This document shows positions 4,927 through 39,390 of a stretch of 44,955 nt of DNA, in pieces. The position numbers were made by a program, and so were the translations under genes. The DNA comes from Melioribacter roseus (GTDB lineage: Bacteria > Bacteroidota > Ignavibacteria > Ignavibacteriales > Melioribacteraceae). The notes beneath the pieces are model-generated. The model was not told where the DNA came from. It did not search any database and saw only the letters and a program-made list of their open reading frames with translations. The stretch is taken from assembly GCA_020722085.1 (NCBI GenBank), contig DYLN01000014.1, forward strand, positions 1 to 44,955. The letters run 5' to 3'. How positions within the stretch are numbered: position 1 is the first letter of the stretch; every line of letters starts with the position of its first letter.

Positions 4927-5183
4927 AGATAAGCCGCGAATGCGCGAATTTTATTTTGTTAGTTTTATAGATATGCTCGAGAAAATTTATTGCAGTGAGC
5001 GCTAATAGGGTAGAAGAGTTGTCTATTCTAATAATGAGATAATTCAAAAGTATTCAGCGTTTGAATAATGGTCTTTTCCGAATAAGGCTGCGCAAATTTT
5101 TCAGCTAATGGTATTTGACTTTTTTAATTGATATCAACTATTCAGAGGTTTCAACTCATAATTTAGAATAAATTTAAAAACTT

Positions 5184-5368
5184 ACATTACGCAGAATGTT
5201 AATTGGAATTGCCACGAGCTTTAGCTCGTGGATTAATGAACACCCAAAAGACGGCTTTAGCCACATTAATTACGAAAAATGGTGCTAAAGCACGAAATTT
5301 TGTCTTAATTTGGTTCCCGACATAAATGTCGGCGCTATTAAATAACTACCATTGCGTAAGGTGAGTTA
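5184..5368. repeat. 185-bp MITE/REP-like multi-hairpin element, copy 1
   Basis: Identical except for one base to 39137-39321. Contains palindromes CCACGAGCTTTAGCTCGTGG (5212-5231), GGCTTTAGCC (5253-5262), GTGCTAAAGCAC (5282-5293), CCGACATAAATGTCGG (5317-5332), and imperfect terminal inverted repeats around TTACGCA/TGCGTAA. Confidence 0.9.
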
Positions 5369-5380
5369 AAAAAATATTTC

Positions 5381-39066: not shown

Positions 39067-39136
39067 AAGAAAAGCTGTGTAATTTGCATATAGGTAAACC
39101 GCAAGAACGCGAAGAGAAATAAAAAATTAGTAATTC

Positions 39137-39321
39137 ACATTACGCAGAATGTTAATTGGAATTGCCACGAGCTTTAGCTCGTGGATTAATGAACACCCAA
39201 AAGACGGCTTTAGCCACATTAATTACGAAAAATGGTGCTAAAGCCCGAAATTTTGTCTTAATTTGGTTCCCGACATAAATGTCGGCGCTATTAAATAACT
39301 ACCATTGCGTAAGGTGAGTTA
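39137..39321. repeat. 185-bp MITE/REP-like multi-hairpin element, copy 2
   Basis: Matches 5184-5368 with no indels and one mismatch (39245 C versus 5292 A). TIR-like TAATTCACATTACGCA (39131) against TGCGTAAGGTGAGTTA (39306-39321). Confidence 0.9.
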
Positions 39322-39390
39322 GTAAAAACTTGGCGTGCTTGCGGTAAAAAATAAAAATTTAGTTATGCAGCCTGCTGCCCATAAACTTTT

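Follow-up and report, generated by a model that had tools for sequence, protein, structure and literature searches.

A repeat search of the window, the whole 44,955-nucleotide stretch of DNA analysed here, identified as its longest repeat two collinear copies of 205 nt at 96% identity with a spacing of 33953, in agreement with the constant offset noted in an earlier sequence-only reading. That reading had placed the repeat, which is real, at 5184-5368 and 39137-39321; reading of the flanks located the true ends of both copies three bases further left, at 5181-5365 and 39134-39318, each 185 bp in length. Its count of a single difference holds for its own coordinates, whereas over the true ends the copies differ at three positions: two fall in the left terminal repeat, where CTTAC stands against TTCAC, and the third is an A/C difference near 5291. 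Furthermore, an exact 7-bp target duplication, a feature that the reading had proposed to look for, borders each copy (TTAAAAA at copy 1, TTAGTAA at copy 2). The features are as follows.

5174..5180, no strand: left 7-bp target duplication TTAAAAA, copy 1
5181..5365, + strand: predicted MITE copy 1, 185 bp core
5181..5193, + strand: left terminal inverted repeat CTTACATTACGCA, typed like the ends of the IS701-family elements L159/L164
5206..5339, + strand: inner three-hairpin unit (Y1-element-like cargo) GAATTGCC...GGCGCTATT, conserved with compensatory changes over 17 aligned units
5212..5231, + strand: hairpin 1 CCACGAGCTTTAGCTCGTGG
5253..5292, + strand: central hairpin GGCTTTAGCC ... GGTGCTAAAGCA, whose arms flank the Y1 gene in gene-bearing relatives
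5317..5332, + strand: hairpin 3 CCGACATAAATGTCGG
5353..5365, - strand: right terminal inverted repeat CTCACCTTACGCA (minus-strand reading)
5366..5372, no strand: right 7-bp target duplication TTAAAAA, copy 1
39127..39133, no strand: left 7-bp target duplication TTAGTAA, copy 2
39134..39318, + strand: predicted MITE copy 2, 185 bp core, absent from the orthologous locus of the same-genus relative G001
39319..39325, no strand: right 7-bp target duplication TTAGTAA, copy 2

Folded as a single strand, the element reached -31.8 kcal/mol (z = -5.0), a stability attained by none of 200 shuffles, which bears out the palindromes described earlier. Likewise, no ORF of 90 aa or more was found within it, as had been stated, and no Rfam family matched at gathering score in the window. 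The TIR-like ends also proved real, although the 16-bp consensus first given for them combines a 13-bp terminal inverted repeat (TIR) with three bases belonging to the duplicated target.

The genome, a draft of 338 contigs, yielded 29 matches to the element in a genome search, of which about 12 were near-complete. The remainder were partial, many being located at the end of a contig, and contigs are broken at many copies. At the site orthologous to that of copy 2 in G001, the flanking matches lie 89 bp apart and the element is absent, which supplies the empty site that the sequence-only reading had suggested seeking. Homologous elements occur in other genera, and a search of plasmids and phages for DNA related to the element returned none.

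Copies retaining both ends carry 13-bp inverted repeats of the CTCACMTTACGCA type. Among the loci read in this genome and its relatives, exact 7-bp duplications bordered 43 of 160 candidate end pairs, compared with 3.6 expected from re-dealing the right flanks, the 43 being a floor because, in many of the 160 candidates, neighbouring ends were wrongly paired; a further 10 pairs matched at six of the seven duplication positions. The duplicated target is AT-rich with the consensus TTANTAA. A 5-bp core repeat is contained within the 7-bp repeat, and we favour the 7-bp reading because targets whose outer base departs from T...A (TTACAAT, TTATTAG and AATATAA, the last on contig C257) are still duplicated. 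Matches to the TIR were present in 79 of 97 relatives, at 40-80 per genome in about ten and as a few chance-level hits in most others. CTGATG-type and CTCACC-type ends were found on one MITE (L064, L065), which suggests some tolerance of minor variation in this segment of the repeat. MITEs with identical ends and quite different cores also exist, and IS701-type ends look as if they regularly capture palindromes. Judged by sequence, the shell is a MITE of the IS701 family, ISAba11 group.

Screening of transposase genes for flanking ends of this type recovered elements of 1.1-1.2 kb in the relatives G057, G062, G052, G048 and G076 and on contig C257 of the same genome as the window; IS701-family elements with matching ends, the autonomous transposase sought in the earlier reading, thus exist in relatives. 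The encoded protein is an IS701-family transposase (NCBIfam IS701_2, NF049921; 325 and 304 bits, cut-off 250). The G057 elements (L159/L162) end in CTCACATTACGCA/CTCACCTTACGCA, identical to the CTCACMTTACGCA of the MITE, that of G062 (L164) carries CTCACGTTACGCA at both sides, and that of G076 (L175) is another autonomous element with ends of this type. The full G057 copy has unequal flanks (TTACTAA/TGATTAA). The C257 element has CTGAAGTTACGCA at both sides and the duplication AATATAA; three of the 13 positions in its ends deviate from those of the MITE, and compared with L159 its reading frame stops about 35 residues early. Given that the transposase was found in only 10 of the 97 relatives, against TIR matches in 79, many of them single and at chance level, several families may be stranded. 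Contigs C3, C98 and C200 of the window's genome end 34-39 bases inside an element starting CTCACATTACGCGTGCGCCAAGCAAAGC, which hints at what is possibly the missing autonomous copy with CTCAC ends, left unassembled. Among the closest plasmid homologues, one bears the annotation 'group ISAba11'. Six homologues were inspected: three show CTGAYSTTACGCAG ends with the 7-bp repeats TTACTAA, TTATTTA and TATTTAA, and for the other three (L240, L242, L243) a simple search returned no ends. A search of solved structures with the transposase gave no match. A 799-bp TIR pair on contig C46 of G002 was rejected as an autonomous element, as it consists of MITE ends enclosing a 2Fe-2S gene.

The core of the element is a conserved unit of ~134 bp with three hairpins: hairpin 1 with the foot AATTG, a central hairpin with the arms GGCTTTAGCC and GGCTAAAGCC, and hairpin 3 with the foot CAATT. 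This unit recurs inside IS701 ends in many genera, is also found without them in G071, G064, G062 and G035, and lies beside a different repeat pair, GCGTCAACTTAA/TTAAGTTGACGC, in G086 and G060. Alignment of 17 units from this genome and relatives, hand-picked from search hits in a manner that favours structure somewhat, showed 95.2% of pair cells paired and nine pairs changed on both sides, with a covariation score reached by none of 500 shuffles; slid controls stayed low. Moreover, a near-constant distance of 12-13 bp separates the left TIR from the unit in several genera, pointing to a single composite of old date and not to recurrent capture.

Several Y1 genes of the order are bracketed by the halves of this unit, in the order hairpin - GGCTTTAGCC - gene - GGCTAAAGCC - hairpin. 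The motif GGCTNNAGCC occurs within 300 bp of the Y1 gene in nine loci, in eight of them on both sides, and near the gene in none of the remaining 17 scanned Y1 loci; its background in more distant flanks is 1 per 35 kb. The nine bracketed loci clustered together in a quick tree, several inner branches of which are weakly supported. Under simple-rule hairpin and ORF scans, strong hairpins were present at both sides of 11 of 26 Y1 loci compared with 0 of 64 control ORFs. The bracketed proteins are about 145 aa long, and most display the motifs DH[IV]H, WQ and Y---Q--HH, by which subclass 1.2 is characterised (PMC6006769); the enzymes of this clade score above the IS200 cut-off and below the REP_Tyr cut-off. 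The genome of the window yielded no Y1 gene belonging to the matching clade; its own two Y1 genes (C46, C81) were rejected as partners because they fall outside the hairpin clade.

Because its halves bracket Y1-clade genes in relatives, the inner unit reads as two Y1-element ends from which the gene has been deleted, that is, as a putative PATE-type gene-less unit sharing its terminal hairpins with a Y1 transposase element. A canonical REP with a RAYT (TnpA_REP) was rejected, since the feet are AATTG/CAATT and not GTAG/GTGG and the enzymes fall below the REP_Tyr cut-off. Of the proposal that a Y1 or REP system was involved, the part concerning the hairpins holds, in that they correspond to the end structures of a Y1 clade, but the enzyme is IS200-like and lies below the cut-off of the REP/RAYT model.

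Collectively, we consider it highly probable that the element is a nested, doubly non-autonomous transposon, an IS701-type MITE carrying a gene-less Y1-type element. The initial suggestion of a MITE, or alternatively of a RAYT/Y1-mobilised REP, is in this sense supported on both sides, the two being nested with the IS701/ISAba11-group ends and 7-bp duplications on the outside. An IS701-family (ISAba11-group) DDE transposase would move the MITE in trans via its 13-bp CTCACMTTACGCA ends and would duplicate a 7-bp AT-rich target, TTANTAA, on insertion. The inner unit would represent two joined ends of a Y1 (HuH) single-strand transposon that lost its gene; the MITE may have captured this Y1-type unit long ago, the unit having travelled inside it since. 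We infer that the MITE is moved in trans, and likewise the order in which the layers became nested. Since the genome yielded no matching-clade Y1 gene, the copies here most probably spread by the DDE route.

We weighed this nested reading against mobilisation of the whole 185-bp element as a REP/REPIN by a Y1/RAYT enzyme, with the outer repeats incidental. The hairpins do match those flanking the Y1 clade, and the unit occurs in relatives also without IS701 ends. Nevertheless, the exact 7-bp duplications at fixed ends argue against such a route, as IS200/IS605-type Y1 elements make none (PMC7290912); the lack of a matching-clade Y1 gene in the genome and the quite different cores of same-ended MITEs point the same way. 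For the outer element this explanation is largely refuted, and we regard it as very improbable.

Alternatively, the hairpin core could be kept as an RNA or as a bidirectional transcription terminator for the neighbouring genes, with mobility secondary. In favour of this, the stems are stable and compensated, the neighbouring genes converge on both window copies, and no called ORF is interrupted by any of 42 insertions. Across 39 scored sites, however, the flanking genes were tandem at 21, convergent at 9 and divergent at 9; a terminator role drawn from gene orientation was rejected in view of this lack of bias. T runs are absent after hairpins 1 and 3, and the lack of any Rfam match speaks against the conserved RNA gene that the sequence-only reading had named as a possible refutation; we give this explanation very little credence. 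The other refutation named in that reading was that only two copies exist and the assembly contains a mis-join. Many copies do coincide with contig breaks, as an assembly mis-join or segmental duplication might predict, but copies are numerous, each has its own unique flanks and its own target duplication, the orthologous locus of G001 lacks the element, and homologues occur in other genera. Because the target duplications are independent, this possibility is refuted and retains practically no weight. The element is neither an RNA gene nor a mis-join.

Insertion sequences of the IS701/ISAba11 group resemble the candidate partners in transposase family (NF049921), size (1.1-1.2 kb), CTSAYVTTACGCA-type ends and AT-rich target. 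ISAba11 was described with the 5-bp repeats ATTTA and TATAG (PMC7885321), whereas our data favour 7 bp (TTANTAA), as do the three plasmid homologues; we propose a 7-bp TTANTAA target rule for this ISAba11-group branch. MITEAba12 of ISAba12 (PMC6382973), a non-autonomous derivative with shared ends, is comparable in principle, but the core here resembles another mobile element and not the IS interior. The literature available contained nothing relevant on MITEs of the IS701 family or of Ignavibacteria. PATEs of IS200/IS605 (PMC7290912) and REPINs are similarly gene-less, with hairpin ends only, and are presumably moved in trans by Y1 enzymes; the present unit differs from them in its three hairpins of conserved layout, in the absence of a GTAG foot and in its enclosure within a DDE-type MITE.

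For TnpA_Y1 subclass 1.2, neither REPs nor, as a rule, terminal hairpins have been reported (PMC6006769); these transposases are also reported as not behaving like insertion sequences. The enzymes here are like this subclass in length, motifs and IS200-like character, whereas one clade of them has hairpins on both sides and dispersed gene-less units. On balance, we favour the broader idea that subclass 1.2 Y1 (HuH) transposases own cognate terminal hairpins and gene-less mobile units, which would persist order-wide inside DDE-transposon MITEs as a two-transposase nested parasite. The nested arrangement, which is widespread in one bacterial order, brings together within a single 185-bp element two transposition systems that are unrelated, and it offers subclass 1.2 HuH enzymes, whose cognate repeats were previously unreported, a concrete candidate substrate. 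The pairing looks old, because the nested layout with compensated stems recurs in several genera.

Several loci showed further rearrangements. In several copies of the window's genome (L008, L010, L012, L014, L024), hairpin 3 is swapped at or near its boundaries for a longer palindromic element with GAGGSTGACYAAAAAGTA ends, while in L025 hairpin 1, not hairpin 3, is swapped for such an element; in L009 (G000:C337:176-462), hairpin 3 holds in its loop a different palindromic element, GAGGGTGTGTGAAAAT...ATTATCACACGCCCTC, accompanied by a TAAA duplication. IS701-ended MITEs of relatives in other genera (L056, L061, L067, L119, L066) have different palindromic cores, of the GTCATTCCC..GGGAATC type and others. 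One repeat family appears to be a frequent target, since several copies (L007, L017, L021, L006, L013, L015, L019) are embedded in a further repeat (..TTAATACTTATCATTTAACAAGTTATGTTACTAA.. and ..AAATTTATCAATAACATATT..). MITEs are densely clustered on contigs C3 and C11 of G079, with six in about 12 kb (L056), and two adjacent copies with one common target repeat were observed in G079 (L059) and also in G016 (L120, L121).
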